Source: Microtetraspora sp. NBRC 16547
Lineage (GTDB): Bacteria > Actinomycetota > Actinomycetes > Streptosporangiales > Streptosporangiaceae
Reading direction: 5' to 3'
DNA: 64,000 nt
NCBI RefSeq assembly: GCF_030268965.1
Contig: NZ_BSSE01000016.1
Location: 1-64,000 of the forward strand
Positions 8,808-36,129 of the stretch are shown here, one piece after another. The number at the start of each line of letters is the position of its first letter. Position 1 is the first letter of the stretch. The notes under the pieces were generated by a model, which was not told the origin of the DNA, searched no databases, and saw only the letters and a list, made by a program, of their open reading frames with translations. Both the position numbers and the translations under genes were made by a program.

Positions 8808-8825
8808 AGCGGGCGATACTGGAGC

Positions 8826-12112: not shown

Positions 12113-12170
12113 CGGCTCCGCGGGTGATCTCGCACCGAACTATTTCCCGAGACGCGGCATCGAACAGTGC

Positions 12171-12896: not shown

Positions 12897-12944
12897 CTTT
12901 CCCGGACTCCGCACTTCACGCACCGGCGACCGATGCCGACCGAC

Positions 12945-13045
12945 CGGCGCGACCGGGTGAGCAGGAAGATGTTCGACACGGACGAGGGGAACCCGGCCAC
13001 CACCTGCGTGAAGATCAGGAGGGACATGCCGTTCCCGACGGCACG
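12945..13045 (-). pseudogene. Fragment of a SecY-like gene
   Basis: On the minus strand this stretch encodes AVGNGMSLLIFTQVVAGFP followed by SSVSNIFLLT. GVGNGMSLLIF is the conserved SecY segment. Only about 30 codons remain, without start, flanking domains or stop of their own. It is a relic lying between a secreted-protein gene and the CDP-alcohol phosphotransferase gene. Confidence 0.55.
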
Positions 13046-13062
13046 GCGGGAGGGGCGAGTGC

Positions 13063-18912: not shown

Positions 18913-19293
18913 GGCCTGCCGGTCCCGGCCCCAGTGGATCACCAGCTGAACAGCGTTCCCAGTGATCCGGGATCGGATCACTCCATGGGAACCCCAGCGG
19001 TAGAAGTCGCATTGAGGTGCCGCATTCAGGGCGGCTGGCTGACGGCGCAACGGCGTGAGCGATCGGCGGACCGTCGTGATGGCCCGATCACGGGGGCCGA
19101 CCGGCGGGGCATTGGGCGGTTTCGCCGTTCCTCCCCGCACTCGGGAGGGTCTTCGCTCCGGGGTGCGAGACCGCCTTCGTAGCTTCCGGCGGCTCTCTGA
19201 CTCGCGTGATCCCGGACCTACTCGTCTCCGTCATCGCGTTGCGCGGCATTCAACAGTGATCGTTGGGCTTGGATTCAAGCGTCTGCCCCCGTG
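18873..19293. other. Intergenic region between the two NACHT genes
   Basis: About 420 bp. The first 40 bp (18873-18912) are identical to 21586-21625 upstream of copy 2, so both genes share the same upstream element; it includes TTCACTGATGCGCAGG. The rest (18913-19290) has no counterpart upstream of copy 2, no credible gene and no clear terminator. Confidence 0.6.
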
Positions 19294-21585
19294 TTACTGG
19301 GGCGGTTGGGGAGTCGTCTGGCGCCGCTCACCGCTACCGGACTCCACGCGACATTGTCGGGAGAGGTGCTTTTGGAGTTCGAGGTTCCGGAACTGATAGA
19401 AAGGCCCCTCGGTTCGCAGCAGGCCCAGACGGTGCGCGTCGTCCAGGAAGCACATGGCCCGCAGCGGCAGCCGCCCTTCGGTGGCCAGCCGGGGAACCGT
19501 CAGGTTGTAGGCGAGCCACGCGTGATGGCTTCCGAACCTGAGCCCGAACAGAAGTCCCAGCAGAAGCCCGCCCACGAGCGCGAGTGGCGCTACGAGTGCA
19601 AGGTGTGCGGACAGTACGGCTTTTAGTGCAATGCCTCCCACTACGAGTCCGATCATCAGACCGCAGAGCACCCGGAAGAGGGTGAGTTTTCTGTCGGCCT
19701 GCCAGGTTGAGCGTGGAGATCGTGCTGTAGCCGTGTCGGTGGGATACTCCACCCACTTGGTCATGCCGAAAATGGCCACGAATACGATCTCACACGCCAG
19801 CACGAGCATGACTGCAGCACCTGCAGCACGTGCAGCACCGGCTTCACTAATTGCGAGCAGCAACCCCACGAGTGCGGTCAAGAGTGCGATGATCAGCCCA
19901 GGTATCAGGAGGTGGACGAGAAGCGAGAGCCTTCCATGGAGCCGGAAAACGGCATAGCCGGGCAATTCCGTGAACCATGATCTGGTAATGATCATGATGA
20001 GAAGCGCGTATATGACGCCGGCCCCCGCTCCGGCTATCACGCTGGCGCACGCGCTGGCTACGGCATTTGTCAGGAAGCCGATCGTAATCGCCACCACAAG
20101 CCCACACGAAAGGCTGACCGCCAATCGGACTGAACGTGTCGGGGTGTGCCGTGCCAGGCGCCACCAGGCCACATCGCGGCTGTCCCTGTCGAGCAGTTGG
20201 GATAGATAGGTCAGCCATTGGCGTACGTGTTCGGGGTTCCAGGCATGGCGGGGCCGGAACGGCTGGGCTGGGTCGTCAGTAGGGAGCCGTGAGTTGACGA
20301 GGGCGGGGATGAGTTGGTCGTGCAGGTGATCGTTCAGGGTGGAAGGATCACCCTGCCCGAGGTCCAGTAGCGGACTCGGGTCTTGCTGGGGGGTGATGTA
20401 GGCGGCGCGGACCAGCCAGAGCTTGAGGGGCGTCGCTGCGACCCAGGCGAGGGCGGGAGTGGCGCCTTCCCGTAGAGCGTCGAGGACGCGAGGCCAGGTG
20501 TGATGGGGTCGGGGAGGAAGGCACGCCTGCAGGTAGTCGGCAACCGCTTCGGCGGAAAGAGGGGATGACTCGATGACTGCCGCTGCAGCAAGAGCACCGA
20601 CCGCATCGACGGATTCCGCGAACTCGGTCGTACGGCAGGTGAGGATCAGCTGATCGTCGTCGCACATCGACCGGTTCAGCGCCGTCAGAATCCCGGCCCG
20701 GGCTTCGGCGGGCAGCTCGTCCAACCCGTCCAGAATGGGCAATACCTCGCTGCGGGTCGCCAGCGTCCTTGCGGTGTCCGGGCCGAAGCCCTCGGCATGC
20801 AATGCGGGATAGTCCGAGCTGAGGCATTCCGCCAGCCAATCATGAAGTTGAGGGTGGGTTTCGGTGTCCCAGCGTGCCGCGGACAGCAGTACCGGAACCG
20901 GCTCACCAGGAAGTCGCGTTTTCAGAAGCTCCATGAGCAGTTGCACGGCCAGGGTCGTCTTTCCTGTTCCTGGCCCGCCGATGATGACCAGGCGCCGGCA
21001 TCGCAGTGCGCGGAAGTCGTTGGCCATGTTGGCCATGTGGTCGCTGAGGCTGGGAAAGCTCAGGGCACCCTTGGCGATCAGGCGTGGGTGGTCCATTAGT
21101 TCTTTATGTTCGGTCGATCGCCACGGGACCGGGATGGGCTCGGGATGCCCGAGCAACCGCAGGACCGTCTCATCTCCCCACTTCTCGGTCACCGAGCCGG
21201 CCAGAACGTCCTTGGCCTTGTCGATGTCGACAGAGGTGGGAGCGGGCGGTGGTTTGGTCGACCTTCGCCACCAGGACCACAGCAGCGCCAACGCGTTCGC
21301 CCATGCCACGAAGGCAGCTATGGTCGCCAGGACCTGTGCGATGTTCACGCCTATTTGCCAGGGGTCCTCGCTCGGCAGCGACAGTCTGGCGTCCAGCACC
21401 TTCCTCGCCAGCAGATAGAGCAAGATTGCCAAGACCGAGAACAAGATCGACACTGCCAAGGTCTTGATCTCAGGTCTCTGTTGCCACCCCGCCTTTCTCA
21501 TAAGACCAGCATGCGAGTGCGTGGTGGCCGAACGTAACAAGGAACCCTGAAACGAAAGCTTGATTGAGCGGAAAACCTCGCGCAT
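19294..21585 (-). CDS. Membrane NACHT-family NTPase, copy 2
   Basis: 763 aa, same architecture as copy 1: two N-terminal helices, NACHT core with IIGGPGTGKTTLA and LPILDGLDELP, C-terminal membrane bundle, and an almost identical last 75 residues (FLDDAHRLGLLRTEGPFYQF). The NACHT core and the tail are close to identical between copies; the C-terminal membrane helices have diverged strongly and are about 20 residues longer here. An alternative start is the ATG at 21501, just before the first membrane helix (MRKAGWQQRPEIKTLAV); neither start has an SD. Confidence 0.85.
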   Translation of the reverse strand: MREVFRSIKLSFQGSLLRSATTHSHAGLMRKAGWQQRPEIKTLAVSILFSVLAILLYLLARKVLDARLSLPSEDPWQIGVNIAQVLATIAAFVAWANALALLWSWWRRSTKPPPAPTSVDIDKAKDVLAGSVTEKWGDETVLRLLGHPEPIPVPWRSTEHKELMDHPRLIAKGALSFPSLSDHMANMANDFRALRCRRLVIIGGPGTGKTTLAVQLLMELLKTRLPGEPVPVLLSAARWDTETHPQLHDWLAECLSSDYPALHAEGFGPDTARTLATRSEVLPILDGLDELPAEARAGILTALNRSMCDDDQLILTCRTTEFAESVDAVGALAAAAVIESSPLSAEAVADYLQACLPPRPHHTWPRVLDALREGATPALAWVAATPLKLWLVRAAYITPQQDPSPLLDLGQGDPSTLNDHLHDQLIPALVNSRLPTDDPAQPFRPRHAWNPEHVRQWLTYLSQLLDRDSRDVAWWRLARHTPTRSVRLAVSLSCGLVVAITIGFLTNAVASACASVIAGAGAGVIYALLIMIITRSWFTELPGYAVFRLHGRLSLLVHLLIPGLIIALLTALVGLLLAISEAGAARAAGAAVMLVLACEIVFVAIFGMTKWVEYPTDTATARSPRSTWQADRKLTLFRVLCGLMIGLVVGGIALKAVLSAHLALVAPLALVGGLLLGLLFGLRFGSHHAWLAYNLTVPRLATEGRLPLRAMCFLDDAHRLGLLRTEGPFYQFRNLELQKHLSRQCRVESGSGERRQTTPQPPQ

Positions 21586-21639: not shown

Positions 21640-22962
21640 CTACGCGTACGGCTCGGCGCGTACGGCCCGCCGGGGAAGCGGGCGTCTGGACGTCACCCCG
21701 CAGAAACCGCGGTCGCGCGCGGCGGCCTGTCCGCGGGGGCCGGGCAGGACCAGGTTGCCATCCGTGATCAGCATGAAGCGCTCCAGGCCAGGCACGATGA
21801 CGTGTACCGCGGTGATCTCCTCTGTGACCGTGGCCACCGTCCGCCAGTAAGGCGTGTAGCCGTGCACGGTCAGGAGGGCGGACAGCTCGCGCAGCTGGCG
21901 ACGGGGGTGCTCCGGCACCCAGCCGTCCGATATGAAGGGAACCGTGCGGGCGCTCCGCAGGTGATCGATGAGGTCGAAGCGCCCGCATGCGTACAGCTCT
22001 GGATAGCCGGCGAGGCCCGCCAGCTCACCACGGTGTGTGGCGTCGGACCACGGCAGGGTTTCCGCCAGGGTGCTCTGAAGGAGTTCGGTGAGGGCCCGCC
22101 AGGCGGCGTAGGCGGGGCTGAGCGAGGTGCCCACGCCACGCCGGTGTGGCCGGGAGAGGGTCGGGGCGGCGTAGGCGAGCGTGGTGGGCACTCCCACGTC
22201 GCTGACGATGTCCAGCAGATACACCGGCGAGCCGATGAGCTGCTCGGTCGCCGCGTGTACGCGCTCCAGCTCGGTCGGGAGAGTCGCCGGGTCGATCACG
22301 GCGGGGCGGAAGTCGGCTGCGCCTAGGAAAGCCCGCAGCAGGAGTAGGGACAGCGCGTCGCGTTCGATGGTCTCGTTGAGCGCGTGCAGCAGTGCCTCAT
22401 CCGCGGTGACGCCGATGGCCGAGCCGCTGTTGCAGCTGTAGCGCATCAGGTTTGCGTAGTCGCAGGCGTCTCCCGCCTGCTCACGCAGCCGACCGGCATG
22501 GGTCTCCACATACCAGGGTGCCGACAAGAACAGCGGCACCGGCGTCCCGGGTCCTCCACCCAGGGGGCGATACCGCAGGCACGCCACACGCTCGGCGGGG
22601 GTCCGCGCCAGCAGCACCATGGATGCCTCATCCCGCAGCGGCCCGGCCGTGATCTCGGCTGCCTCGACCAGCTCCACGGTCGCGGGATCGAACACGGCCG
22701 GGCCGGTCAGATAGTGCTCAAGCGCCTCGAACAGCGCTCCTACGCGGGCCTCCTCGCGCCGCCCCTTGCCCGTCCCCAGGGCCATCGGCGGCACGTCCCC
22801 ATCGTGTGTGAGCAGGCGACACGCCCACGCGGTCGGATCGCGGCCCCGGCCCAGATCCGTCAGCTCCGGCTCCAGGCCCAGTTCCCCCAGCGCCGCCGTC
22901 ACCCGCCTCGCGGCCTCCGGCAGCGGCACCACACGCTCCACCCCGGACGGCGACCTACTCAT
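21640..22962 (-). CDS. Stand-alone YcaO-family cyclodehydratase-like protein
   Basis: 440 aa. YcaO enzymes use ATP to activate peptide amides, making azolines, thioamides or amidines in RiPPs. Visible YcaO features are GKGRREEARVGALFEALEHY (ATP-site Glu residues), YSCNSGSAIGVTADEALLHA then LNETIERDAL (the conserved NS..A....EA..H...E..ERDA block) and a late RALTELLQS helix. No E1-like or TfuA partner is nearby, and the C-terminus lacks a PxPxP tail. Start overlaps (ATGA) an upstream frame that continues a 44-codon small gene. Closest types are stand-alone or bottromycin-like YcaOs, but the product cannot be predicted. Confidence 0.88.
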   Translation of the reverse strand: MSRSPSGVERVVPLPEAARRVTAALGELGLEPELTDLGRGRDPTAWACRLLTHDGDVPPMALGTGKGRREEARVGALFEALEHYLTGPAVFDPATVELVEAAEITAGPLRDEASMVLLARTPAERVACLRYRPLGGGPGTPVPLFLSAPWYVETHAGRLREQAGDACDYANLMRYSCNSGSAIGVTADEALLHALNETIERDALSLLLLRAFLGAADFRPAVIDPATLPTELERVHAATEQLIGSPVYLLDIVSDVGVPTTLAYAAPTLSRPHRRGVGTSLSPAYAAWRALTELLQSTLAETLPWSDATHRGELAGLAGYPELYACGRFDLIDHLRSARTVPFISDGWVPEHPRRQLRELSALLTVHGYTPYWRTVATVTEEITAVHVIVPGLERFMLITDGNLVLPGPRGQAAARDRGFCGVTSRRPLPRRAVRAEPYA

Positions 22963-23401: not shown

Positions 23402-24517
23402 TCATCGCTTTGACGGTCGACGCGGTCCTGCCGAAGCGCGGCGTCCAGCGGGTACGCGATCGCGCTCAGCGGCTGCCGGGGCAGGTCGGGCTGCCGGCGG
23501 CCGATAGCGGGCGCGGTACTCGTCCCAGTTCCAGCTGTCCAGGAAAGTCGAGGCGGCCACGCGGCCGTTGTTGTAGAGAAGCAGCTTCTGCTGGTCGCTC
23601 AGGTCGAAGTCGGTGATGCCGACCGTCTCCGTGTCGACTTCGATGGTGCGGGCCTTGACCCATGGCTGGTTGAGGCGGGTCTGGTCGTGACCGACGATCG
23701 CGGTGCCGATGAGGGACATCAGCAGCCGCACCGCGGGCACGCGGGGGGTGCCGACAAGAGGCAGTTTGAGCGCGTCGTCCTGGAACGCGGGCAGCAGCTT
23801 CACGCCGAAGGTGGGCCAGCGGGGCTCCTTCCCGTCAGGGCGATCCAGCGTGTCGATCGGGAAGTTGGACAGCACCCCGCCGTCGACCAGGGTCGAACGT
23901 AGTCCGGTCTCGGGATTGGTGATGGTGACCGGCTCGAAGAAGAACGGGATCGACATCGAGGCGCGGACCGCGTCGACAACCCGCTGCTTGCCGGGCTCTT
24001 TCACGCCATAAACCGTCCGGTAGTCCCATGGCAGGCGTACCAGCTGGCCCAGGGTGACGTCGGTGGCCATCACCACCAGGTTGTATCGCTGATCTTCGCT
24101 CATCCAGGGTGCCGGATTCTCAAGCGCCAGATCGTCGAATGTTTCGACACCCAGGTCCGCCAGCTGGTTTCCCAGCCATTCCCGCAGATAGTCACCCTCG
24201 TATATGCCCCGCTCGAACAGAAGGGACAGGAGGGAGAAGCCCTTACCGGCGAGCGGAATACGTTCCACAGCGGATTTATCCCGGAATTTGCTCCAATCGA
24301 CCTCCCCCATGATCTGCCGCATCCGCTCTGCGGGCATGCCTGCCGCGACCAGGGCTCCAGCCACCGCCCCGGCGGAGGTGCCGGCGACGCGGGTGTCGGC
24401 GGCACGCCCGAACCGGTACCCGGCCTTTTCGAGCTCATACAACGCCCCAACCAGGGCGAGACCTTTGACGCCTCCGCCTTCGAGTACCAAGTCAGCCGGC
24501 TTTTCTCTGTCAGCCAT
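23402..24517 (-). CDS. Patatin-like phospholipase
   Basis: 371 aa. Lipid acyl hydrolase with a Ser-Asp dyad. The oxyanion loop LVLEGGGVKGLALVGAL is at residues 9-25, the nucleophile elbow GTSAG near 50, and the catalytic Asp in LVDGGVLSNFPID near 213. The last 30 residues are Arg/Pro-rich and variable. Patatins release fatty acids from membrane lipids. The gene is divergent from the heme-oxygenase fusion gene across an 800-bp gap, so it could supply its fatty-acid substrate; it also lies 190 bp upstream of the small peptide/YcaO pair on the same strand. Confidence 0.92.
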   Translation of the reverse strand: MADREKPADLVLEGGGVKGLALVGALYELEKAGYRFGRAADTRVAGTSAGAVAGALVAAGMPAERMRQIMGEVDWSKFRDKSAVERIPLAGKGFSLLSLLFERGIYEGDYLREWLGNQLADLGVETFDDLALENPAPWMSEDQRYNLVVMATDVTLGQLVRLPWDYRTVYGVKEPGKQRVVDAVRASMSIPFFFEPVTITNPETGLRSTLVDGGVLSNFPIDTLDRPDGKEPRWPTFGVKLLPAFQDDALKLPLVGTPRVPAVRLLMSLIGTAIVGHDQTRLNQPWVKARTIEVDTETVGITDFDLSDQQKLLLYNNGRVAASTFLDSWNWDEYRARYRPPAARPAPAAAERDRVPAGRRASAGPRRPSKR

Positions 24518-25315
24518 TGGTCGTCGCCTTTCCTGGCTCTCTCCATCGCAACCGGGTATACCGCGATCCGGTCGCGTTCATCCCTGCCGGGTGGAGCCCT
24601 GGCGAGCCCGCCGGGCTGAGGCCGTATCTATTCCGGTAAATCCCTGCTCACGATGAAGTGGAGAAAATACGGGCACATGGGCGACCCTTGAGTCCCCTCT
24701 TCCAGCGGGACGGAATTCACGCCCCTGAACGGCAAAGATTCGGCATCTGCCATTTTGCTGAAGGAATGAGATCAGGTCGAGTGGCCACGTCCGCGTGATC
24801 GGCCGGGGATGATGCGCGTCCCAAGGGCCGGGCCACGGGTGCCCCGGGAACGGGTAAGCGCATGGAGCCGTCACCTGTCTCCGGAGTGAAGAGTCAACCA
24901 GCCCGTATTCGTGTTCCGGTAAATAGAGTGACATTCTTCGATCGGGTGGAAGTCTTTGAAAGAATGATATTTCCATCGCTTGTTCCGATATTGCCTGATT
25001 CTGTTCTCGTCTCATGGATGATGGAACGGTGGTGTGCTGGGGTGTGAACTGGCGTCCTGTGCGCCTACCGGCCGTACTGGTGATTCACACACCGCCCTGT
25101 GCGCTCGCGAGTTCGCGCTTCTATTCGCGCCTGGTGTTCCAAACGGAGGTTGCCGGTATTTCGAACAGGATGGCCGGCCCTGCGGCAAGAGGGCCGCGCT
25201 GTCGCCGGTTCCGGTGAACCACGGAATCGCGGAATCGGAATCACCGAAAGAGATCCTTGCGCCGCGCCCGAACGCCCTCGCGACCGATGAGGGCGAGCAC
25301 CGGTTGGAGAGTCAC
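24518..25315. other. Long AT-richer divergent promoter region
   Basis: About 800 bp between patatin and the heme-oxygenase fusion, less GC-rich than its flanks, especially 24900-25010. It contains two copies of TTCCGGTAAAT (24631-24641 and 24914-24924), each preceded by CCGTAT three to five bases earlier: a possible operator pair. Long open frames in it lack RBS and domains. The extension of the fusion-protein frame back to 25034 is not supported by a ribosome binding site. Confidence 0.5.
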
Positions 25316-28237
25316 ATGCACGAGACCAAGCGGCACGAGCGCCCTGTCGGCGAAGCTCCGGTGACGCCGGCAGCACCCAAGGCCGAGCTGTACGAGCGTT
25401 ATGTCGGCGGTTCTCCCGAGGTTGAACGACAGATCTTCGAGAAGCTCGCCCGCGACCTCATGCAGGTCCAGTTGAAGATCATGAAGCGCAGCGGTGCCGC
25501 CGGCATCGACCGGACCTTCCACGCGAAAGCGATCCTCGCCGTCGAGAACGCCAAGCTGCGGTTCCGCCCGGACCTTCCCGAAGACCTGCGGGTCGGCTTC
25601 GCCAAGCCCGGTGCCGAATACCCGGTCATCGTCCGGCTGTCCAACGCGAGCGGCGCCCGCCAACCGGACTTCGCACCTGATCTGCGAGGTGCGGCACTGC
25701 GGATACAGGCAGGGCCCGATCAGGCCCATGACCTCCTCATGACGAGCTATCCGGTCTCCCACGCGCGGAACGCGCGTGAGTTCGTCGCGTTCGCGGAGGC
25801 CATGGCAGGCGCGGACTCGACCCTGCGCAAAGGGGTCGCGCTGTTCGTCAAACTGCCCATGGCGGTGGGCTGGTCCACCGCCGCGCGCATGCGGCGGAAC
25901 GTGACCGCGGGCACCAGGCGCAAGGTGAGCAGCCTCGCGCTCGAGACGTACTGGAGCCGCGGCGCGATCCTGTGGGGGGACGCCGGACCGGTGCGTTACC
26001 GGCTCCGCCCCGTCGCGGGCGCGCCGGCGGCACCCCCTCCGTCGCAGAGCGATCCCGACTACCTGGGGCATGAGATCTCCGCGCGGCTGGCAAGGTCGGA
26101 CATCGTCTTCGAACTGTGCGTACAGCGCTACGAGGACGCCTGGCGCACGCCCATCGAGAACGGCGCGGCCGACTGGACGGAGGAGGACGCGCCCGTCATC
26201 CCGGTGGGGACGCTGACGATCCCGCGGCAGGACCTCGACACCGCGGACGCGCGTGCCATCGCGCTCCGCGTCGACCAGCTCGCCTTCGACCCGTGGAACA
26301 CCACGGACGAGTTCCGTCCCCTCGGCAACCTGAACCGCGCCCGCAAGGCCGCCTACGAGGCAAGCAGCGCCCATCGCCGGGGGTACCGCTTCATCACGCC
26401 GCGGCCGAAGCGCAACGTCGTCGTCGGAGGGCTCCTCGAGACCGGATTCAGCGCCCTCGACCGCGTCGTCCCCTGGCACAGGCTGCCGACCTGGCTCGGG
26501 CTCCTCAATCTCGAAGCGTTCCGGCAGGTGCTGCGCACCCACAACCTCATCGACACCGAGATACGCGAGGCTCCACCGAAGGCCCACCCGGTGCCGCCGC
26601 CCATCGACGAGCACCTGCGGGTCAGGCGCAGTTATGACGGCACCTACAACGACCTGTCCGCACCGATGATGGGAGCCCTCGGCGCGGCCTTCGGCCGCAA
26701 TCTGCCTCCCGTCTACCAGCCAGATCTCTTCGACACGCCCAATCCGGTGACCGTCAGCAGGGAACTGCTCCACCGCGACACCTTCATCCCGGCACGGTCG
26801 CTGAACATCATCGCCGCCGCGTGGATCCAGTTCCAGGTGCACGACTGGGTCAACCACAAGCGCTACCCGGCCGGGAAGAAGAGCGTCGAGGTGCCGCTGC
26901 CGCCCGGCATGACCTGGCGCAACAGCCCGGGTGGAAAGCCCGAGAAGGCCATGCGTTTCGCCGAGAACGAGGGCGTTTCCCCGGGCGGCGCTGAGCCGCC
27001 GATCCTGTTCGCCAACACCGCCTCCCACTGGTGGGACGGCTCGGAGGTCTACGGCGGGGACGAGGCCACCGCGAAGTCCCTGCGCGAGCCGGACGGCGGC
27101 GCGGCGCTGCACCTGGAGAACGGCCATCTGCTGCCCGGCCCGAACGGCATCCCGACCACCGGTTTCAGGGAGAACTGGTGGCTCGGCCTCAGCGTCATGC
27201 ACACGCTCTTCGCCCGTGAGCACAACGCCGTGTGCGAGGCCCTGCGGAGCGAGTACCCCCGCATGGACGAGGACAGCGTCTACCACACGGCGAGGCTCGT
27301 CGTCTCCGCCCTGATCGCCAAGATCCACACGGTGGAGTGGACCCCCGCGATCCTCGCGACCGAACTGATCGATATCTCGCTGACGGCCAACTGGGAGGGG
27401 CCGCCGAAGAACTGGCTGACCCAGCTCGGGCTGTGGCTGGTCGACGCGCACGCGCTCACCGGTATCCCCGAGACCCTGCCCGACCACCACGCCGCGCCCT
27501 ACTCGCTCACCGAGGACTTCGTCACCGTCTACCGGATGCACCCGCTGATCCCGGACGACTTCGAGATCGCCGACCACCGATTCGGCCAGACGCTCGACAC
27601 CCTGGGATTCAACGACGTGCAGGGCGGCGCCACGGAGGCTCTCATCCGCAAGGTCGGTCTCACGAACTCGCTGTACTCGCTCGGCATCGCCCACCCGGGT
27701 GCGATCACCTTGCATAACTATCCGCGCGCGCTCCAGGCGTTCGAGCGGGACGGAGAGGTGATCGACCTGTCCGTGGTCGACATCGTGCGTACCCGCCGTC
27801 GCGGTGTTCCGCGCTACAACGACTTCCGTGCCGGTCTGCACAAGCCGCGCATCCGGCGCTTCGAAGACCTCGCCTCCGACCCGGATACGGTGGCACGGCT
27901 CAAGGACGTCTACCGTACGGTCGACGACATCGACACGATGGTCGGGCTCTACGCGGAGAACCCGCCCAAAGGGTTCGGCTTCAGTGACACGGCCTTCCGT
28001 ATCTTCATCCTCATGGCCAGCCGGCGGCTGCAGAGCGACCGCTTCCTCACCGTCGACTTCAGGCCCGAGATCTACACCCCGCTGGGGCTGGACTGGATCA
28101 ACCGCAACGGCATGAAGAGCGTCATCCTGCGGCACTGTCCCGAACTGGCCGGCTTCCTGCCGAGAACGGCCAGCGCGTTCGCGCCGTGGCGCCCGAGCAC
28201 GCCCGACAAGCACGTTCCCGACGCCGGGCGCGACTGA
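25316..28237 (+). CDS. Catalase-like domain fused to alpha-dioxygenase/COX-like heme peroxidase
   Basis: 973 aa. Residues about 20-395 are a catalase-fold heme domain of the SrpA/allene-oxide-synthase type: distal RTFHAKA (His69), DLRGAALRIQ, proximal-side ETYWSRGAILWGD (Tyr212), FDPWNTTDEFRPLGNLNRAR. Residues about 430-973 are an animal-type heme peroxidase closest to alpha-dioxygenases: AAAWIQFQVHDWVNH (distal His509) and TVYRMHPLIPD (radical Tyr739, proximal His742). Such oxygenases make fatty-acid hydroperoxides; catalase-like domains can convert hydroperoxides. Start at 25316 has GGAGAG. First gene of an operon with a nitroreductase-like gene and two ThDP enzymes. Confidence 0.9.
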   Translation: MHETKRHERPVGEAPVTPAAPKAELYERYVGGSPEVERQIFEKLARDLMQVQLKIMKRSGAAGIDRTFHAKAILAVENAKLRFRPDLPEDLRVGFAKPGAEYPVIVRLSNASGARQPDFAPDLRGAALRIQAGPDQAHDLLMTSYPVSHARNAREFVAFAEAMAGADSTLRKGVALFVKLPMAVGWSTAARMRRNVTAGTRRKVSSLALETYWSRGAILWGDAGPVRYRLRPVAGAPAAPPPSQSDPDYLGHEISARLARSDIVFELCVQRYEDAWRTPIENGAADWTEEDAPVIPVGTLTIPRQDLDTADARAIALRVDQLAFDPWNTTDEFRPLGNLNRARKAAYEASSAHRRGYRFITPRPKRNVVVGGLLETGFSALDRVVPWHRLPTWLGLLNLEAFRQVLRTHNLIDTEIREAPPKAHPVPPPIDEHLRVRRSYDGTYNDLSAPMMGALGAAFGRNLPPVYQPDLFDTPNPVTVSRELLHRDTFIPARSLNIIAAAWIQFQVHDWVNHKRYPAGKKSVEVPLPPGMTWRNSPGGKPEKAMRFAENEGVSPGGAEPPILFANTASHWWDGSEVYGGDEATAKSLREPDGGAALHLENGHLLPGPNGIPTTGFRENWWLGLSVMHTLFAREHNAVCEALRSEYPRMDEDSVYHTARLVVSALIAKIHTVEWTPAILATELIDISLTANWEGPPKNWLTQLGLWLVDAHALTGIPETLPDHHAAPYSLTEDFVTVYRMHPLIPDDFEIADHRFGQTLDTLGFNDVQGGATEALIRKVGLTNSLYSLGIAHPGAITLHNYPRALQAFERDGEVIDLSVVDIVRTRRRGVPRYNDFRAGLHKPRIRRFEDLASDPDTVARLKDVYRTVDDIDTMVGLYAENPPKGFGFSDTAFRIFILMASRRLQSDRFLTVDFRPEIYTPLGLDWINRNGMKSVILRHCPELAGFLPRTASAFAPWRPSTPDKHVPDAGRD

Positions 28238-28263: not shown

Positions 28264-29637
28264 ATGTCCGTGAAGCGAGAGGTCAAGCAGCAGGGGTTGG
28301 CAGATCTCCTCTCCCGGCCACTGCTGGAGACGATCTGGAAGCGACGCACCCACCGGATCAGCCGTGGCGCGTCCGTGCCGGCCGGTTCGATGAGCTACCG
28401 GTCCCCGCATCGGCCGATGCCGCTGGAGGAACTGGAGGAGGCGACGCTCATCGCTCTCACCGGCTGCTCCGGCCTGACCATGCCGGACCGGCCGTTCGAG
28501 GACCCGCGCGACGGGAAGCCCATCATGGCCAAGCCGAACCTCAACATGGGCGGGCGGACGGCGGGCAGCCCCGACAACGCGCAGGGCACCCACTTCTTCA
28601 TGATCAACGACACCGGCACCTACTACCTGAGGAAGCTGCCGCCCTCTCCGGACCTGCCCTTCAACGCCGACACGCTGGTCGAACGGGCGCGCCAGGCCAA
28701 GGTGAGGGTCCTGGACCACCGTCTCGACGTCGCCGAGGGGATGCGGGACTTCCCGGCCTACCTGGACTCCAACCGCTTCCTGTCCAACCTTCCGGGCACC
28801 ACGGTCTTCCTGCCGGTCGTCGACCTCTCCCACCAGTACATCAACGCGCTGATGTACCTGCTCACCCAGCCGGATGGGGCCAGGCCGACACTCGTGGACG
28901 ACCGCAACTTCTACCGGCCGGCCGGCGTGGGGAAATGGGTGAGGAGCGGGTTCCTGAACGCGGATCTCAAGCTGCCGCTGGGAGCCCTGGGGCCGATGCG
29001 TACCCAGATCGAGGCCGACCTGCTTCTGCAGAACATGATGCTGGTCGCGGACGCGATGGGGCTCGGCGCCTGGATCCACGCCGCGATCCATCCGCAGATC
29101 ATGTTGGGTGACCCGAAGTTCTCCCGGGCGTACGGCCGGATGCTGGGCTTCGACTTCGTCACGCCGCGCTTCCGGCCCGCCGACGTCCTGCGCTGGCACG
29201 TACCGCTACCCAAGTACGCCGCCCTGCGCTCCCACCCGGTCGGGCTCCGGGTCGACGGAGAGCACCTCATCAAGGCCGCCTGCCCGCCCAACTTCCCTTC
29301 CATGGAGAAGGCCGTCGAGGCCGTCGTGCAGGCGAAGTTCGGTCCGGACGGCATCTACACCGATACGGAGACCTTCGCCCGCATCTACAACGGTGACTAC
29401 GGGCGGCGCTACCTGGCCGAGGCGAGCGAGTACGACCAGCGGGTGGTCGACTGCGCGCGGGACATCTGCGTGTACATCCACACGACTCACGGGCGGTTCC
29501 CCGCGCATGCGGATGCCATTCACGTGCCCGGCATATGGCTGCAGACGCACCATGTCGAGTCGGAGTATTACGAGCAGTTCTTCGTGAACGGAACGACCAG
29601 CGCGCACGCCCGGCATGCCGCCCAGTGGCACGCGTAG
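28264..29637 (+). CDS. Nitroreductase-fold flavoprotein-like protein
   Basis: 457 aa, much longer than simple nitroreductases (about 200). The N-terminal SYRSPHRPMPLEELEEATLI resembles the FMN-binding start of nitroreductases, and LLLQNMMLVADAMGLGAWI (about 255-275) is the family's central helix. Between them a long insert carries RTAGSPDNAQGTHFFMINDT. The C-terminal third (about 340-457) is unknown. Starts 26 bp after the fusion gene with GGAGAGCGAGG, so it is co-translated with it. A redox partner, or an enzyme acting on the hydroperoxide product, is plausible; activity is not predictable. Confidence 0.7.
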   Translation: MSVKREVKQQGLADLLSRPLLETIWKRRTHRISRGASVPAGSMSYRSPHRPMPLEELEEATLIALTGCSGLTMPDRPFEDPRDGKPIMAKPNLNMGGRTAGSPDNAQGTHFFMINDTGTYYLRKLPPSPDLPFNADTLVERARQAKVRVLDHRLDVAEGMRDFPAYLDSNRFLSNLPGTTVFLPVVDLSHQYINALMYLLTQPDGARPTLVDDRNFYRPAGVGKWVRSGFLNADLKLPLGALGPMRTQIEADLLLQNMMLVADAMGLGAWIHAAIHPQIMLGDPKFSRAYGRMLGFDFVTPRFRPADVLRWHVPLPKYAALRSHPVGLRVDGEHLIKAACPPNFPSMEKAVEAVVQAKFGPDGIYTDTETFARIYNGDYGRRYLAEASEYDQRVVDCARDICVYIHTTHGRFPAHADAIHVPGIWLQTHHVESEYYEQFFVNGTTSAHARHAAQWHA

Positions 29638-29774: not shown

Positions 29775-31484
29775 ATGCAGGTCTACGAAGCTCTCGTCAA
29801 GGGGCTCGAAAGCGCGGGAGTCGACACCGCGTTCGGCGGTAATGGCGAGAACATCGCCAGTTTGACGCTGGCGCTGCGGCGTTCGCGGAAGATCCGGCCG
29901 ATCATGACGCGGCATGAGCAGGCGGCGTCGTTCATGGCGTGCGGCTACGCGATGTACACGAACCGGCTGGGTGTCTGCTTCGCGACGGTCGGTCCCGGAG
30001 CGTTCAACCTGTTTTCCGGCCTTGCGGTCGCACTGTCGGACTCCTATCCGGTCTTGGCCATAACAGGCTTCGTCTCTCTCGATTGGCGCGGACGCGGCGC
30101 GGTGAACGACACGTCCGGATTGAACCGCACACCCGACTCGCAGGCGATGTTCGCTGCGACGACCAAGAGGTCATACCTGCTCACCGACGTCGCCGACACG
30201 TGCGACGTGCTCGAGGAGGCCGTGAACGTCGCGTTCGAAGGGCGGCCGGGGCCGGTGCACATTCACGTGCCGCAGAACCTCACCAACCGCGGGGTGACTG
30301 TGGACAACTACCATGACGTCGGTATCGATGTGGCGCCGGTGCGGCCCGACCCGGAACAGGTCGAGATGATCGCGGACGTGCTGGCTGACGCGTTGCGAGA
30401 CGGGCGCCGGGTCGTCCTCCTCGCCGGCTTCGGCGCGATCCGCAGTCACGCGGAGGCGGCGGTGCTGCGCTTTGTCGAGCGATTCCAGGTGCCGCTGGTG
30501 ACCACCCTGGACGGCAAGGGGGCCATCGCCGAAACCCACCCGCTGGCGTTCGGGGTGTTCTCGGAGAGCGGTCACGCGAGTGCCTTGAAGGCATTCCGCG
30601 AGGCCGATGTGGTCCTGGCCGTCGGCAACTCCTTCAGCCAGCATGCGACCTTCGGGCTGCGGAAGGAGCTGTTCGACGGCAAGGTGCTCATCCAGGTCAA
30701 CATCGCGGCGAGCGAGATCGGCAAGACCTACGTCCCTGAACGCCTGCTCGTCTCCGACGCGTGTCTGGCGATCGAGGCGATCACCGACGCCCTGGAGAGG
30801 AGGGTCGGTCCGGTCAGGTCCGCGCCCGTCGTCGGCCGGGACGACGAGGCGCGACGCATCGTGCGTCTTCCCGGCGAGATCCACCCAGGGCAGCTGGCGC
30901 AGACGATCGGCCGGATGCTGCCGGAGCGCGGCGTCGTCCTCGCTGACGCCGGCGCACATCTGGCCTGGCTGGGCTACTACGTGGACCTCGAAAGCGGCCA
31001 GAACTTCCGCAAGACGGGTACCTTCGGGCCGATGAGCGGGCACGTCAACGGCGCGATCGGGGTGAAGCTGGCCCAGCCTGACCGGACGGTCGTCGTCGGC
31101 TGCGGCGATGGCTGCTACTCGATGGCCGGCTTCGAACTGATGACCGCCGTGGAGAACGACGTGCCGGTCATCTGGGTGATCTTCAACGACGATGAGTACA
31201 AGATCGTGAAGCTCTACCAGCTCGCAAACTACGGCGAATCAGGCCTGGTGAACTTCAAAAACCCCGACTTCGCCGCGTACGCGCGAATGTGCGGCGCGGA
31301 CGGCTACCGCGTGAAGACCATCGAGGAGTTCGAAGACGCGTTCCGTGCGGCATTGGCCTCGGGCCGACCCACGGTGATCGACGCCAAGATCACCCGGTGG
31401 GCACTTCCGCACTACAGCTCCTCGCCTGAAGGCACGATCCCCGGCGTCTGGGAGGCGCTCGAGAATCGGCTCCGCCATGAGTGA
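29775..31484 (+). CDS. ThDP-dependent lyase/synthase (acetolactate synthase-like), paralogue 1
   Basis: 569 aa, three-domain POX/AHAS fold. N-terminal PYR domain with the activating Glu in TRHEQAASFMACGYAMY; central domain LVTTLDGKGAIAETHPLAFG; C-terminal PP domain with the ThDP/Mg motif VVGCGDGCYSMAGFE..VIFNDDEY. The family includes acetolactate synthase, oxalyl-CoA decarboxylase and 2-hydroxyacyl-CoA lyase. Behind a fatty-acid alpha-oxygenase, a 2-hydroxyacyl lyase role is attractive, but substrate residues were not assigned. The SD GAGGGGG precedes the ATG. Its neighbour at 31549 is a close paralogue (roughly three quarters of residues shared by eye). Confidence 0.85.
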   Translation: MQVYEALVKGLESAGVDTAFGGNGENIASLTLALRRSRKIRPIMTRHEQAASFMACGYAMYTNRLGVCFATVGPGAFNLFSGLAVALSDSYPVLAITGFVSLDWRGRGAVNDTSGLNRTPDSQAMFAATTKRSYLLTDVADTCDVLEEAVNVAFEGRPGPVHIHVPQNLTNRGVTVDNYHDVGIDVAPVRPDPEQVEMIADVLADALRDGRRVVLLAGFGAIRSHAEAAVLRFVERFQVPLVTTLDGKGAIAETHPLAFGVFSESGHASALKAFREADVVLAVGNSFSQHATFGLRKELFDGKVLIQVNIAASEIGKTYVPERLLVSDACLAIEAITDALERRVGPVRSAPVVGRDDEARRIVRLPGEIHPGQLAQTIGRMLPERGVVLADAGAHLAWLGYYVDLESGQNFRKTGTFGPMSGHVNGAIGVKLAQPDRTVVVGCGDGCYSMAGFELMTAVENDVPVIWVIFNDDEYKIVKLYQLANYGESGLVNFKNPDFAAYARMCGADGYRVKTIEEFEDAFRAALASGRPTVIDAKITRWALPHYSSSPEGTIPGVWEALENRLRHE

Positions 31485-31548
31485 CGCATGACGATTTCGC
31501 CGTGCGTCACCGGTCCGGGCGGCTCGGGGACGAGGGAGGGGAGGAGAG

Positions 31549-33258
31549 ATGAAGGTTTACGAAGCCATCGTCAAGGGGCTGGAAGACATCGGGGTGCGGG
31601 CCGCTTTCGGTGGCGCCGGGGAGAACGCCGCCGGGCTGATGCTGGCGCTGAAGCATTCGCGGCAGATCCGGCCGATCATCACGCGACACGAGCAGGCCGC
31701 GTCCTTCATGGCCTGCGGGTACGCGATGTACACGAACAGGCTGGGCTTCTGCTTCGCCACGGCCGGGCCGGGGGCGTTCAACCTGTTCTCCGGGCTGGCC
31801 GTGGCGATGTCCGACTCCTACCCGGTCCTCGCCGTCTCCGGATACGCGTCGAGGAAATGGCAGGGATGGGGCTCACTCAACGAGACCTCGGGGGTGAACC
31901 GGACGCCCGACTCGCAGGCCATGTTCGCGGCCACGACCAAGAAGTCCTTCCTGCTCACCGACATCGCGGACACGTTCGACGTGCTCGAGGAAGCGGTCAA
32001 CATCGCGTTCGAGGGGCGGCCCGGGCCGGTGCACATCCACGTTCCCGAGGACCTGACCGAACGCGGTGTCGAGGTCAGGAACACCCGGCCCCTCCGGCTC
32101 GACGTCGCGTCGGCCCTGCCCGATCCGGCACGCGTGGAGGAGATCGCATCGGTACTGGCGGACGCCATCGCGAGCCGGAAACGCATCGTGGCGCTCGTGG
32201 GCTTCGGGGCCGTCCGGAGCGGAGCGGGAACGGAGATCAGGCGGTTGATCGAGCGGTTCCAAATCCCGCTGCTCACCACTCTCGACGGCAAGGGCATCGT
32301 GTCCGAGGGGCACCCGCTGTCGGTAGGCGTCTTCGCCGACAGCGGCCACGCGAGTGCCTGGAAGGCCTTCCGCGAGGCCGACGTCGTGCTGTGCGTCGGG
32401 AACTCCCTCAACCAGCACGCCACGTTCAACTACCGCGAGGGGCTGTTCGACGGCAAGCTGCTCATTCACGTGAACATCTCCGAGACCGAGTTCCAGAAGG
32501 CCTACCCGCCCGACTACGCGCTCCTGTCCGACGCGCGCCCGGCGGTGGCGGCCCTCATCGACGCGCTGGAGAAGAAGGTCGGCGAGGTACCGGCCGTCGA
32601 GGTCGACGGCAAGGACTACGAGGCCCGGCACATCACCCACCTGACCGGGAAGATCCACCCGGGAGAGCTCGCGCAGGCGATCGGCCGGATGCTGCCGGAG
32701 CGCGGCGTCCTCCTCGCCGACGCCGGCGCGCATCTGGCCTGGCTGGGCTACTACGTGGAGCTCGAGGAAGGCCAGAACTTCCGCAAGGCCGGTTCGTTCG
32801 GGCCGATGGCCGGGCACGTCAACGGCGCCATCGGGTTGAAGGTCGCACATCCGGAGCGGACGGTCGTCGTCGGCTGCGGCGACGGGTGTTACTCGCTGTC
32901 CGGCTTCGAGCTGATGACTGCCGTCGAGCACGAAATCCCCGTCATCTGGGTCATCTTCGACGACGAGGAATTCAAGTTGATCAAGCTCTACCAGATCTCG
33001 GCGTATGGAGAGACCGGGCTCGTCGAGTTCCGGAACCCGGACTTCGCGGCGTACGCGCGTGCGTGCGGCGCGGACGGCTACCGAGTGGAGACGATCGAGG
33101 AGTTCGAAGACGCGTTCCGCGACGCCCTGGCCTCCGGCCGTCCCACGGTCATCGACGCCAGGATCACTCGATGGGCCGTCCCTCACTACAGCCCCTCGCC
33201 CGACGGCGTGATCGCCGGTCTGGTTGAGACCGTTGAAGCCCGCTTCCGTGACCGCTGA
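31549..33258 (+). CDS. ThDP-dependent lyase/synthase, paralogue 2
   Basis: 569 aa, same length and order as paralogue 1: TRHEQAASFMACGYAMY, LLTTLDGKGIVSEGHPL, GCGDGCYSLSGFELMTAV and VIFDDEEFKLIKLYQ. Differences cluster in the middle domain and in the cofactor loop (FNDDEYKIVK versus FDDEEFKLIK). This may mean divergence of substrate or formation of a heteromer. SD GGGGAGGAGAG; 64 bp after paralogue 1. Last gene of the operon; a perfect inverted repeat follows at 33296. Confidence 0.85.
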   Translation: MKVYEAIVKGLEDIGVRAAFGGAGENAAGLMLALKHSRQIRPIITRHEQAASFMACGYAMYTNRLGFCFATAGPGAFNLFSGLAVAMSDSYPVLAVSGYASRKWQGWGSLNETSGVNRTPDSQAMFAATTKKSFLLTDIADTFDVLEEAVNIAFEGRPGPVHIHVPEDLTERGVEVRNTRPLRLDVASALPDPARVEEIASVLADAIASRKRIVALVGFGAVRSGAGTEIRRLIERFQIPLLTTLDGKGIVSEGHPLSVGVFADSGHASAWKAFREADVVLCVGNSLNQHATFNYREGLFDGKLLIHVNISETEFQKAYPPDYALLSDARPAVAALIDALEKKVGEVPAVEVDGKDYEARHITHLTGKIHPGELAQAIGRMLPERGVLLADAGAHLAWLGYYVELEEGQNFRKAGSFGPMAGHVNGAIGLKVAHPERTVVVGCGDGCYSLSGFELMTAVEHEIPVIWVIFDDEEFKLIKLYQISAYGETGLVEFRNPDFAAYARACGADGYRVETIEEFEDAFRDALASGRPTVIDARITRWAVPHYSPSPDGVIAGLVETVEARFRDR

Positions 33259-33313: not shown

Positions 33314-33438
33314 CGCCGTATGGCGGCTGATCACGCTGAGGAGCCGGTCACCGAAGGTGAGGCCGGTTCCGCCGCCGACGACGGCGAGCCGTACGGGCAG
33401 ATGTCGTGATCACGACGCTACGGAGGACCGCGGGGCGC

Positions 33439-33451
33439 GGAATCAGTCATC
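33439..33451 (+). promoter_or_regulatory. GGAATCAGTCATC motif upstream of the LAL regulator
   Basis: An exact 13-bp match to 37560-37572, which lies upstream of the FAD monooxygenase and ECF genes. It sits 33 bp before the -10 box TACGAT (33484-33489), near -45. Confidence 0.5.
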
Positions 33452-33483
33452 TTCCCGGTTGGTCATGCCTGAGCGGGCGTAAG

Positions 33484-33489
33484 TACGAT
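33484..33489 (+). promoter_or_regulatory. -10 box of the LAL regulator gene
   Basis: TACGAT fits TANNNT and ends 6 nt before the GTG at 33496, predicting leaderless mRNA. A TTGGTC word 19 bp upstream is a possible -35. Confidence 0.5.
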
Positions 33490-33495
33490 CGCGGG

Positions 33496-36129
33496 GTGCT
33501 GCACGGGCGAGACGGCGAACGACGAACGGTTGACCGCCTGCTGCAGGAGGCCCGCACGGGCACCAGTGGCGTCCTGCTGATCCGCGGAGAGCCGGGCATC
33601 GGCAAGTCCGCGCTCCTCGATCATGCCGCCACGACGGCCGACGGGTTCACCGTGCTGAGGGGCGCCGGTGTCGAGTCGGAGGCGGAGCTGCCCTTCGCCG
33701 GGCTGCACTTGCTTCTGCTGCCCGTACTCGACCACGTCGAAGGGCTGCCCCCGGTGCAGGCCGCGGCCCTGCGCGGTGCACTGGGCATGGCCGACGGCCC
33801 GGCCGCGGACCGGTTCCTCGTCGGCGTGGCCACCCTGTCGCTCCTGGCGGAGGCCGCGGGGCAGCGCCCGCTGCTGTGCCTGGTCGACGACATGCAATGG
33901 CTCGACAAGGCGTCCGCTGACGCCCTGCTGTTCGCCGCGCGCAGGCTCAGGGCGGAGGGCGTCGTGCTGCTGCTGGCGGCACGCGAGGAGTTCGCGCCCG
34001 CGGGCCTGCCCGAACTGCCACTGTCCGGGCTGGAGGACAGGGCGGCGGCGGCGCTGCTCGACGAGCACGTCCCCGGCCTCGCCGGCGAGGCGCGCGAACG
34101 TGTTCTGGCCGAGGCGGGCGGCAATCCGCTCGCCCTCATCGAACTGCCGGTGACCGCCGACCAGGCGCACTCCCCGCTGGGCCCGCTGCCGCTCACCCGG
34201 CGCCTGCAGGACGCCTTCTACGACAAGGTCGCCGGACTGCCGGACGGGGCACGGACGCTGCTGCTCGTCGCCTCGGCTGAGGACACCGGCGAGGTCGCGC
34301 TCATCCTGCGCGCCGCGCGCCGATTCGGCGTGGACGACGACGCGCTGGAGGTGTGCGAGCAGGCAGGCCTTGTCCGTGTGATCGGGACGACCCTGGTCTT
34401 CCGGCATTCGTTGGCTCGCTCTGCGGTCTACCAGGCCGCCGGTTTCGCTCGCCGCTGTGCCGTACACCGGGTGCTGGCCGAGGTCGGCGACGCCGAGCGG
34501 CGCGTCTGGCACCTGGTCGCGGCGGCGACGGAGCCCGACGAGCGGCTCGCCGCAGACCTGGAGAGCTCGGCCGAGCGCTTCCGCGACCGCACGGGCCACG
34601 CCGCCGCCGCGGCCGCGCTGGAACGGGCCGCCGAGCTCACCCCCGACGAGAGCGCGCGCACCCGCCGCCTGGCCGCCGCCGCGCAGGCGGCGCTCGACTC
34701 CGGCCAGCTCGAACGAGGACGGCTGCTGGCCGAGCAGGTCGCCGCACGCACCGCCGACCCGCGCCTGTCGGCGGAGATGGCCATGGTGAGAGCCGATGTC
34801 GAGTTCGAGCGCGGGGCGCTGGAGGCAGCCAGCGCCATGCTGATGGCCGCCGCGGAGTCCGTTGTCGCGACCGACCCGGCGCCGGCGAGGACGATGCTGC
34901 TGCAGGTGATCCGCAATAGCTGGTACGCCGGGGACCCGATGCCGGCCGCGGACGCCACCGCCCGGCTGGGTGGGCTCCCGTACGACAACGACCCCCGCCG
35001 TCCGGCGCCGGCCATGGCGCAGGGCATGTCGGCCCTGCTCGCCGGTCGGCCGGCGGTCGCGCTGCCCCTGCTGCGCGAGGTGGTCGAGGGCGGCAGGCAG
35101 GTTCGGCAGGGCATGCACGGCCTGCGGAACAACGCGGCCCAGATGGCGCTGCTCATCGGCGATCACAGCACCGCGCTGGACATCGCACGGTCGCTGTCCG
35201 AGGAGTGCGCCTCGCTCGGCATGATCACCTGGCTCCCGCACGTCCACCTCGTGCTGGCCGCCGCGGAGCTGCACCTGGGCCGCCATCTGGATGCGATCGC
35301 CACCGCCGCTTCGGGCGAGAGCATCGCCACGCAGACAGGCCAGTCCCACCTGGAGGCTCAGCTCTGCGGGGTGCGGGCCTGGCTGTCCGCGGCGGCGGGC
35401 GATGAGTCGTCCTGCAGGGAGCTGGCCGGGCGCGCCGGGAGCCTGCCGTACGGGGCGGCCTGGGCACAGTGGGCGCTCGCCCTCCTGGATCTCGGGCTCG
35501 GCCGCTACGACCAGGCGCTGGATCGGCTCGACTCGGTGACGAGGCATCAGGCGGCCGCTGTCCCCGATCAGGTGGAAGCCGCGGTACGGCTCGGCCTTCC
35601 TCATCGGGCGGAGCGTTCGCTCGCGCTGTTCGAGGAGTGGACCGCGGCGGCGGACCAGCCGTGGGCGCGTGCCGCGCTCATGCGCTGTCACGCGCTCCTC
35701 TCCGACGACGAGGAGAGCTTCATCCGCGCGCTGGCGATGCACGAGCGGCCCTTCGACCGCGCCCGCACCCAGCTGCTCTACGGCGAATGGCTCCGCCGTG
35801 AGCGGCGCAAGCACGACGCCAGGACGCCTCTGCGCGACGCGGCCGAGACGTTCGAGCGGCTCGGCGCCCGGCCCTGGGCCGAGCGGGCGTGCGGTGAGTT
35901 GCGTGCCACCGGCGAGACCTTGACGAGGGCTCCGGGGAGTGACCTGCTCGGACGGCTCACACCTCAGGAGCTCCAAGTGGTACGGCTGGCCGCGACGGGC
36001 GCCACCAACAAGGAGATCGCCGCCCAGCTCTTCCTCAGCCCACGCACGGTCGGCCACCACTTGTACAAGGTCTACCCGAAGCTGGGCGTGACCACCAGGA
36101 CCGAGCTGGCCGGGCTCAGCCTGCCGTGA
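33496..36129 (+). CDS. LAL-type (MalT-like) LuxR-family ATP-dependent regulator
   Basis: 877 aa from the GTG at 33496. N-terminal AAA-type ATPase begins LHGRDGERRTVDRLL, with Walker A LIRGEPGIGKSALLDHA and Walker B LLCLVDDMQWLDKAS. A long TPR-like helical middle follows. The C-terminal LuxR helix-turn-helix is LTPQELQVVRLAATGATNKE then IAAQLFLSPRTVGHHLYKVY. LAL proteins are ligand-gated activators of secondary metabolism or catabolism. The frame opens earlier (33406), but the TACGAT box and family start favour 33496. It lies between the ThDP operon and an FAD monooxygenase that shares its 13-bp upstream motif. Confidence 0.92.
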   Translation: MLHGRDGERRTVDRLLQEARTGTSGVLLIRGEPGIGKSALLDHAATTADGFTVLRGAGVESEAELPFAGLHLLLLPVLDHVEGLPPVQAAALRGALGMADGPAADRFLVGVATLSLLAEAAGQRPLLCLVDDMQWLDKASADALLFAARRLRAEGVVLLLAAREEFAPAGLPELPLSGLEDRAAAALLDEHVPGLAGEARERVLAEAGGNPLALIELPVTADQAHSPLGPLPLTRRLQDAFYDKVAGLPDGARTLLLVASAEDTGEVALILRAARRFGVDDDALEVCEQAGLVRVIGTTLVFRHSLARSAVYQAAGFARRCAVHRVLAEVGDAERRVWHLVAAATEPDERLAADLESSAERFRDRTGHAAAAAALERAAELTPDESARTRRLAAAAQAALDSGQLERGRLLAEQVAARTADPRLSAEMAMVRADVEFERGALEAASAMLMAAAESVVATDPAPARTMLLQVIRNSWYAGDPMPAADATARLGGLPYDNDPRRPAPAMAQGMSALLAGRPAVALPLLREVVEGGRQVRQGMHGLRNNAAQMALLIGDHSTALDIARSLSEECASLGMITWLPHVHLVLAAAELHLGRHLDAIATAASGESIATQTGQSHLEAQLCGVRAWLSAAAGDESSCRELAGRAGSLPYGAAWAQWALALLDLGLGRYDQALDRLDSVTRHQAAAVPDQVEAAVRLGLPHRAERSLALFEEWTAAADQPWARAALMRCHALLSDDEESFIRALAMHERPFDRARTQLLYGEWLRRERRKHDARTPLRDAAETFERLGARPWAERACGELRATGETLTRAPGSDLLGRLTPQELQVVRLAATGATNKEIAAQLFLSPRTVGHHLYKVYPKLGVTTRTELAGLSLP

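Follow-up and report, generated by a model that had tools for sequence, protein, structure and literature searches.

A fusion of a catalase-like heme domain and a putative alpha-dioxygenase in Microtetraspora, a candidate bifunctional enzyme of fatty-acid alpha-oxidation

In a 64,000-nucleotide stretch of the genome of Microtetraspora sp. NBRC 16547 (contig NZ_BSSE01000016.1, positions 1 to 64,000 of the forward strand; hereafter the window), a single gene encodes a protein of 973 amino acids that joins an N-terminal catalase-like heme domain to a C-terminal half which is well supported by its sequence as an alpha-dioxygenase (alpha-DOX). We consider that this fusion is probably a bifunctional bacterial enzyme of fatty-acid alpha-oxidation, in which one half would oxygenate a free fatty acid and the other would receive the product. 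An earlier note, made from the letters of the window, had placed the gene at 25316..28237 and had named His69, His509, Tyr739 and His742 as heme-site residues; the frame, the coordinates and these four positions were confirmed (Table 1).

Two heme-type domains in one frame

The domain search proposed in the earlier note gave a strong match to An_peroxidase (residues 438-944, E 1e-98) and a weak one to Catalase (residues 95-358, E 8.9e-6), which at 25.5 bits lies just above the cut-off of 25. The search for the same architecture, likewise suggested there, identified whole-protein relatives of the fusion at 192 places in the genome collection; the best 80 of these, on which the locus counts given here rest, comprise by record title 64 Actinomycetota and 16 Rhizobiales (counted by hand). 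The window protein and those of 79 loci were aligned end to end with the heme ligands kept, and residue counts out of 80 refer to this alignment, from which L066 (863 aa, below 900 aa) was excluded. Because the 192 places hold such relatives and the proteins of the 79 loci align over their whole length with conserved ligands, chance or an assembly artefact as the origin of the fusion was ruled out by the relatives at the 80 loci. The fusion is the sole An_peroxidase match in the host genome, a search of three other genomes of the host genus returned no match to the fusion protein (one of four carries it), and plasmid records annotate it as 'peroxidase family protein'.

The top solved relatives of the C-terminal half in a PDB search were the plant alpha-dioxygenases 4hhr (E 1.9e-111) and 4kvj (E 7.6e-109), with weaker matches to lactoperoxidase (2.7e-23) and cyclooxygenases (COX; 1.7e-10). 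An open reading frame (ORF) on a plasmid of Calothrix sp. PCC 6303 (L085) was identical to the window protein at 268 of 572 aligned residues, and its positions 131, 290, 295, 354, 358, 361, 522 and 529 carry exactly the residues named for CalDOX in PMC8720084; because of this agreement in numbering, the ORF is probably CalDOX itself. All eight sites are identical in the window (H509, H671, T676, F735, Y739, H742, F897 and R904). They include the radical Tyr and the proximal His of a YR.H motif with the two supporting Phe (F735 and F897, equivalent to CalDOX F354 and F522), as well as the carboxylate-binding His and Arg (H671, R904) and the positioning Thr (T676), and H509, H671, T676, Y739, H742 and R904 are invariant in the 80 rows. 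The distance of 233 residues between distal and proximal His, which the earlier note had regarded as alpha-DOX-like, is close to the 230 of CalDOX (H131/H361, PMC8720084), and its assignment of this half to a COX/alpha-DOX type could be narrowed to alpha-DOX by the PDB matches and the residues. An oxylipin enzyme resembling allene oxide synthase (AOS) or a 10-dioxygenase (10-DOX), whose C-terminal half would oxygenate unsaturated acids within the chain and whose N-terminal half would form allene oxides or cleave the chain, as in corals and Nostoc, is very improbable in view of the carboxylate set H671/T676/R904 found in 80/80 rows; the YRWH-type peroxidase that lies beside a catalase in Paracoccus yeei (L086) has V, I and A in place of this set.

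The N-terminal half has the catalase beta-barrel fold together with a distal His and a proximal Tyr in an RxxxY motif, as expected of a catalase-related heme protein. The idea of two heme-type domains in one chain therefore stood, with one correction to the ligand: Tyr212, previously named as proximal, was rejected, since its column holds 60 Y, 19 F and 1 V, and the ligand is instead Tyr347, which like R343 of the stretch R343-K-A-A-Y347 is conserved in every row and lies within helix 338-354 of the AlphaFold model. The 3e4w protein is the closest solved relative by sequence, and its catalase-related type is also the nearest by fold, tied with coral AOS within 1 Z unit; the SrpA/AOS-type label of the earlier note was right as to the catalase fold and the likeness to AOS, and had to give way to the 3e4w type as the nearest one. 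This relative, which we take to be MAP-2744c, a 33-kDa catalase-related protein of Mycobacterium avium subsp. paratuberculosis with presumed peroxidase activity, differs from the fusion in being stand-alone. At the distal Asn of a true H2O2 catalase, a position that we presume from known catalases, the window protein has Ser144. Coral-type AOS carries a Thr before the distal His; in the window this residue is Phe68, and the column (63 F, 8 Q, 4 L, 2 V, 2 I and 1 P of 80) contains no Thr. An allene-oxide reaction would not seem to suit the chemistry of a saturated 2-hydroperoxide. The Catalase score, barely above the Pfam cut-off, could be taken to mean that one half is catalytically dead and has a structural or regulatory role only, which is hardly to be expected when H69 is kept in 79/80 rows and R343, Y347 and the alpha-DOX residues in 80/80.

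Proposed reaction and a second pairing in reverse order

In the first step of the proposed reaction, which is well supported by the sequence, the heme of the C-terminal half would generate a radical on Tyr739, this radical would abstract an alpha-hydrogen of a free fatty acid bound by His671, Thr676 and Arg904, and the addition of O2 would yield a 2-hydroperoxy acid. The products of alpha-DOX are 2R-hydroperoxides, which spontaneously lose CO2 to form Cn-1 aldehydes or give 2-hydroxy acids (PMC8720084, PMC9305512), and this decay offers a reason for capture by a partner domain. In the second step, the N-terminal heme domain (His69, Tyr347) would receive the unstable 2-hydroperoxide before it decays and steer its conversion, for which cleavage of the O-O bond is the most likely route, with the Cn-1 aldehyde and CO2, or a 2-oxo or 2-hydroxy acid, as products. 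The catalase-fold relatives of corals and Nostoc cleave or rearrange lipid hydroperoxides without an external reductant. By analogy, a catalase-fold domain tied to an oxygenase is best read as a hydroperoxide receiver, and aldehyde plus CO2 or the 2-oxo acid would be the expected products, a 2-hydroxy acid requiring a reductant. In a third step suggested by the gene order, lipases or patatins may supply the free acid, and a conserved partner protein of 457 aa (hyp457) and a thiamine diphosphate (ThDP)-dependent enzyme may take the aldehyde or 2-oxo acid further, a plausible use being its decarboxylation or the formation of a carbon-carbon bond.

A second pairing, in reverse order with the dioxygenase before the catalase-like domain, was found in the genus of the actinobacterial genome G388, where 30 of the 118 genomes gave matches to such a protein. 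Both halves lie in one open frame of 961-1048 codons, stop to stop, in eight genomes (G388, G475, G417, G462, G456, G505, G451, G450), as adjacent same-strand genes in six (G328, G405, G498, G476, G453, G415) and as divergent neighbours in three (G443, G477, G481); two others hold both apart or on unresolved contigs and three gave weak matches only. The Tyr, both His, the Thr and the Arg of the alpha-DOX set are also invariant in this type (9/9 rows). When 46 catalase-like domains were placed in a tree, the window fusion type (20 rows) formed one clade (100/99) and the reverse-type domains fell elsewhere, among stand-alone genes; a single clade for all partner catalase-like domains (29 rows, including L181 from the fused frame of G417) was rejected by the approximately unbiased (AU) test (p 9.3e-57). 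A tree of 44 alpha-DOX rows, made by a quick method, with a very long outgroup branch and with L130, L171 and L186 excluded, also kept the two types separate (window type, 20 rows, 100; reverse type, 9 rows, 100). As the two types are apart in both trees and the grouping of all partner domains was rejected, the joining of the two halves, if not each acquaintance between them, occurred at least twice. The eight reverse-order fusions strengthen the coupling of the halves, and the logic of the earlier note, by which one half makes a hydroperoxide and the other transforms it, gained from this separate pairing. A third type of pairing was seen side by side in G534 (on a 5.8 kb contig) and about 4 kb apart in G632. 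An Acaryochloris peroxidase of 938 aa (L186), considered as a further fusion, was discarded, having no catalase domain by Pfam. Stand-alone catalase-family proteins at about 40% to the reverse-type domain occur on Agrobacterium and Novosphingobium plasmids (L182, L183), where their genes adjoin those for oleate hydratase, acyl-CoA thioesterase and DyP peroxidase.

Several observations weigh against the bifunctional reading. The AlphaFold model, from which the earlier note had hoped for two heme pockets, gave the ligand helix of the N-terminal half; the C-terminal half was modelled poorly, mostly with a predicted local distance difference test score (pLDDT) below 50, which leaves sequence as its support, and all 50 rows shown of a structure comparison of the fusion model were catalase-fold chains, so that the comparison is uninformative on this half. 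The column of the catalase Asn holds 48 N, 29 S, 2 G and 1 A, with Ser in the window, and the catalase-like lineage of the third pairing (L169, L171; G632, G534) carries, in both members, Asn where the distal His would stand. Among the 30 reverse-order genomes, five showed only the dioxygenase and another three, weak peroxidase matches aside, only the catalase-like gene. A hand count in a class sample of 394 genomes gave 34 alpha-DOX places, 24 of which showed no partner beside them, the others being six of the window type, the reverse fusion of G388 and three neighbours (G328, G534, G632); the probe for this count, the window N-terminal half, was weak and missed the known neighbour of G328. 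Eleven of 15 fetched alpha-DOX regions had no catalase-like match in the fetched stretch. Since many alpha-DOX genes show no partner, a catalase-like partner is not needed for alpha-oxygenation. Finally, hyp457 was missing at 19/80 fusion loci and the ThDP gene at 44/80, some of the latter cut by contig ends.

The main alternative is that the N-terminal half removes H2O2 or excess lipid peroxide, protecting the alpha-DOX or setting its activating peroxide tone, and stands outside the product route. It would agree with the priming of alpha-DOX by H2O2 (PMC9305512) and with a nearest fold, 3e4w, that belongs to a catalase-related protein. However, bacteria generally own dedicated catalases, the catalase Asn position is not conserved, and the recurrence of the domain with a single oxygenase family, in both orders, suggests that it uses the oxygenase product, which makes a guarding role rather unlikely compared with the proposed receipt of the 2-hydroperoxide.

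Relation to described enzymes

Catalase-fold domains fused to a lipoxygenase (LOX) are found in corals (PMC3925239) and cyanobacteria (PMC11719350), and heme dioxygenases fused to a P450 in fungi (PMC13049297). The former (AOS-LOX) share with the window protein an N-terminal catalase-fold domain and a C-terminal fatty acid oxygenase, which in their case is a lipoxygenase and not a heme dioxygenase. The latter (LDS, PpoA) share a COX-like heme dioxygenase joined to a further heme enzyme acting on the hydroperoxide product, but their partner is a P450 at the C-terminal end and they oxygenate in the chain. In Nostoc, a heme dioxygenase works with a catalase-related hydroperoxide lyase encoded by a separate gene, and for Nostoc punctiforme a linoleate 10S-dioxygenase and a catalase-related 10S-hydroperoxide lyase are cited (PMC13049297, PMC9579011); a catalase-heme dioxygenase fusion protein of 2012 is mentioned in PMC11719350, and PMC13049297 speaks of a separate gene. 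The Nostoc system is similar in that a catalase-related heme enzyme acts on the hydroperoxide of a COX-superfamily heme dioxygenase, and differs in its separate genes and its in-chain 10S oxygenation. The original description of this pair is reportedly that of Brash 2014, and the motif of the 10S-dioxygenase is presumably YRWH. The Paracoccus yeei pair belongs to a different dioxygenase branch (YRWH) and was rejected as the same kind as the fusion; because of this motif and the missing alpha-DOX carboxylate set, it seems nearer to the Nostoc kind. Genes for RoxA-like cytochromes c, possibly other lipid-oxidising heme enzymes, lie beside this pair (L086 2109-3971) and beside a Rhizobium fusion (L084 11816-13474).

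The alpha-dioxygenases CalDOX, LepDOX and those of rice and Arabidopsis are stand-alone proteins, although the C-terminal half of the fusion has all the CalDOX-named residues, and the first characterised prokaryotic ones were three stand-alone cyanobacterial enzymes (PMC9305512). In an alpha-DOX phylogeny paper and a review (PMC8720084, PMC9305512) the terms 'catalase' and 'fusion' yielded no such fusion, and a search of open-licence PMC papers brought up no account of an alpha-DOX fused with a catalase-like domain, whichever half came first. The earlier statement that no enzyme with this combination had been described can thus be kept, within these papers, for the alpha-DOX version and its fusion, and is too broad with regard to the Nostoc dioxygenase and its catalase-related lyase. 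The fusion would extend the theme of coral AOS-LOX, fungal DOX-P450 and Nostoc to the alpha-DOX branch. With the reverse pairing and with neighbours that recur, namely a lipid hydrolase, an unannotated partner and a ThDP enzyme, it provides a testable hypothesis for the fate and use of the unstable 2-hydroperoxide in bacteria. As a catalyst complete in itself, it could be of use for making shortened aldehydes or 2-oxo acids.

Neighbouring genes

Table 1. Features of the fusion gene and its surroundings in the window.
Feature	Position	Strand	Basis or conservation
Fusion gene, 973 aa, catalase-like heme domain and predicted alpha-dioxygenase	25316..28237	+	ORF, Pfam, homologues
Shine-Dalgarno-like GGAGAG, 5' of ATG 25316	25306..25311	+	sequence
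N-terminal catalase-like domain, residues 1-370	25316..26425	+	
C-terminal predicted alpha-dioxygenase domain, residues 380-960	26453..28195	+	4hhr E 1.9e-111; CalDOX 268/572 identical
Distal His69 codon	25520..25522	+	79/80 rows
Proximal heme Tyr347 codon (R343xxxY347), corrected ligand	26354..26356	+	80/80 rows; aligns with RxxxY of catalase-fold relatives
Distal His509 codon (CalDOX H131)	26840..26842	+	80/80
His671...Thr676, carboxylate/alpha-carbon positioning (CalDOX H290, T295)	27326..27343	+	80/80
YRMH, radical Tyr739 and proximal His742 (CalDOX Y358, H361)	27530..27541	+	80/80
Arg904, carboxylate partner (CalDOX R529)	28025..28027	+	80/80
hyp457, 457 aa, conserved partner gene, weakly nitroreductase-like	28264..29637	+	61/80 loci
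ThDP-dependent enzyme 1, acetolactate-synthase-like	29775..31484	+	three TPP Pfam domains
ThDP-dependent enzyme 2, nearest solved chains BbmA and CsmA	31549..33258	+	Pfam, PDB search
Patatin-like phospholipase, divergent, likely fatty-acid supplier	23402..24517	-	PF01734 E 3.1e-35
LuxR-type large regulator, possible local regulator, membership uncertain	33406..36129	+	AAA_16 and GerE

In the window, hyp457 follows the fusion directly after a gap of 26 bp, and at 57 of its 61 loci among the 80 it comes immediately 3' of the fusion, on its strand, after gaps of 14-247 bp; such pairs occur in Streptosporangiales, Streptomyces, rhizobia, Mycobacterium and Geodermatophilus. When the lists were compared by hand, the 16 plasmid records with at least 80% of the fusion proved to be exactly those 16 in which hyp457 is present at an identity of at least 60%, many being near-identical Rhizobium phaseoli. 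In the class sample, all three genomes with a close hyp457 have the fusion, and three of six fusion genomes are without hyp457. PF00881 matched 15 of 20 hyp457 members at E<=1 (best 0.003); the window member stayed below the nitroreductase cut-off (15.6 against 23.5 bits). Its model has a pLDDT of 40, and hhalign with one nitroreductase frame of the host gave a weak match (E 0.006 but probability 6%) and none with a second. No common theme was seen in the gene contexts of distant relatives (Haladaptatus, Rhizobium SL42, Rhodobacter).

Aldehydes and 2-oxo acids are usual substrates of ThDP enzymes. An enzyme of the window type (identity of 55% or higher across more than 400 aa) is encoded at 36/80 loci, 35 of them with hyp457. 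Most of these loci have one copy, and L056 has two in tandem; the two of the window (29775-33258, +) are of equal length, 569 aa, and apparently arose by local duplication. A different ThDP enzyme, whose one scanned member is of PRK07586 type, lies near the fusion at eight loci. As a control, the 7.8 Mb host genome gave 11 ThDP C-domain matches, two of them beside the fusion. A stand-alone alpha-DOX on a Streptomyces plasmid sits with genes annotated as benzoylformate decarboxylase, FAD-linked oxidase, P450 and alpha/beta hydrolase. In Phyllobacterium sp. A18/5-2 (L083) the ThDP and hyp457 genes are each split into two annotated frames (7165-8873, 11889-13236) and the fusion is one frame.

With regard to lipid supply, a Lipase_3 gene (one member scanned) adjoins the fusion divergently in 10 Streptomyces loci, and an 839-aa patatin lies two genes upstream in nine rhizobial loci, with patatins further off in three. 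In total, 22/83 loci have a lipid hydrolase nearby and 61/83 show neither Lipase_3 nor patatin, counts that come from related, not independent, strains; the two unrelated hydrolase families point the same way. It is possible, and we propose it tentatively, that actinomycetes and rhizobia possess a so far unrecognised lipid-signal or natural-product pathway, in which a lipase or patatin would feed the fusion, and hyp457, as an oxidoreductase, together with a ThDP carboligase like BbmA/CsmA would lead on to acyloin-type lipids. The fusion would then make the 2-oxo acid or Cn-1 aldehyde without free hydroperoxide, its N-terminal half performing a new catalase-fold reaction, as a 2-hydroperoxy acid dehydratase or decarboxylating lyase.

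A gene for a YcaO-domain protein lies upstream of the fusion (21640-22962, -). It was rejected as a core partner, being found by tblastn at 4/80 loci (L006, L009, L010, L015), and also at L087, in related hosts. A gene for a thiazole/oxazole-modified microcin (TOMM) leader-binding protein is present near the Calothrix alpha-DOX (L085). Two tandem, very similar NACHT-domain proteins of 741 and 763 aa, with hydrophobic stretches visible by eye, are encoded at 16647-21585 (-) of the window and are likely the result of a duplication.

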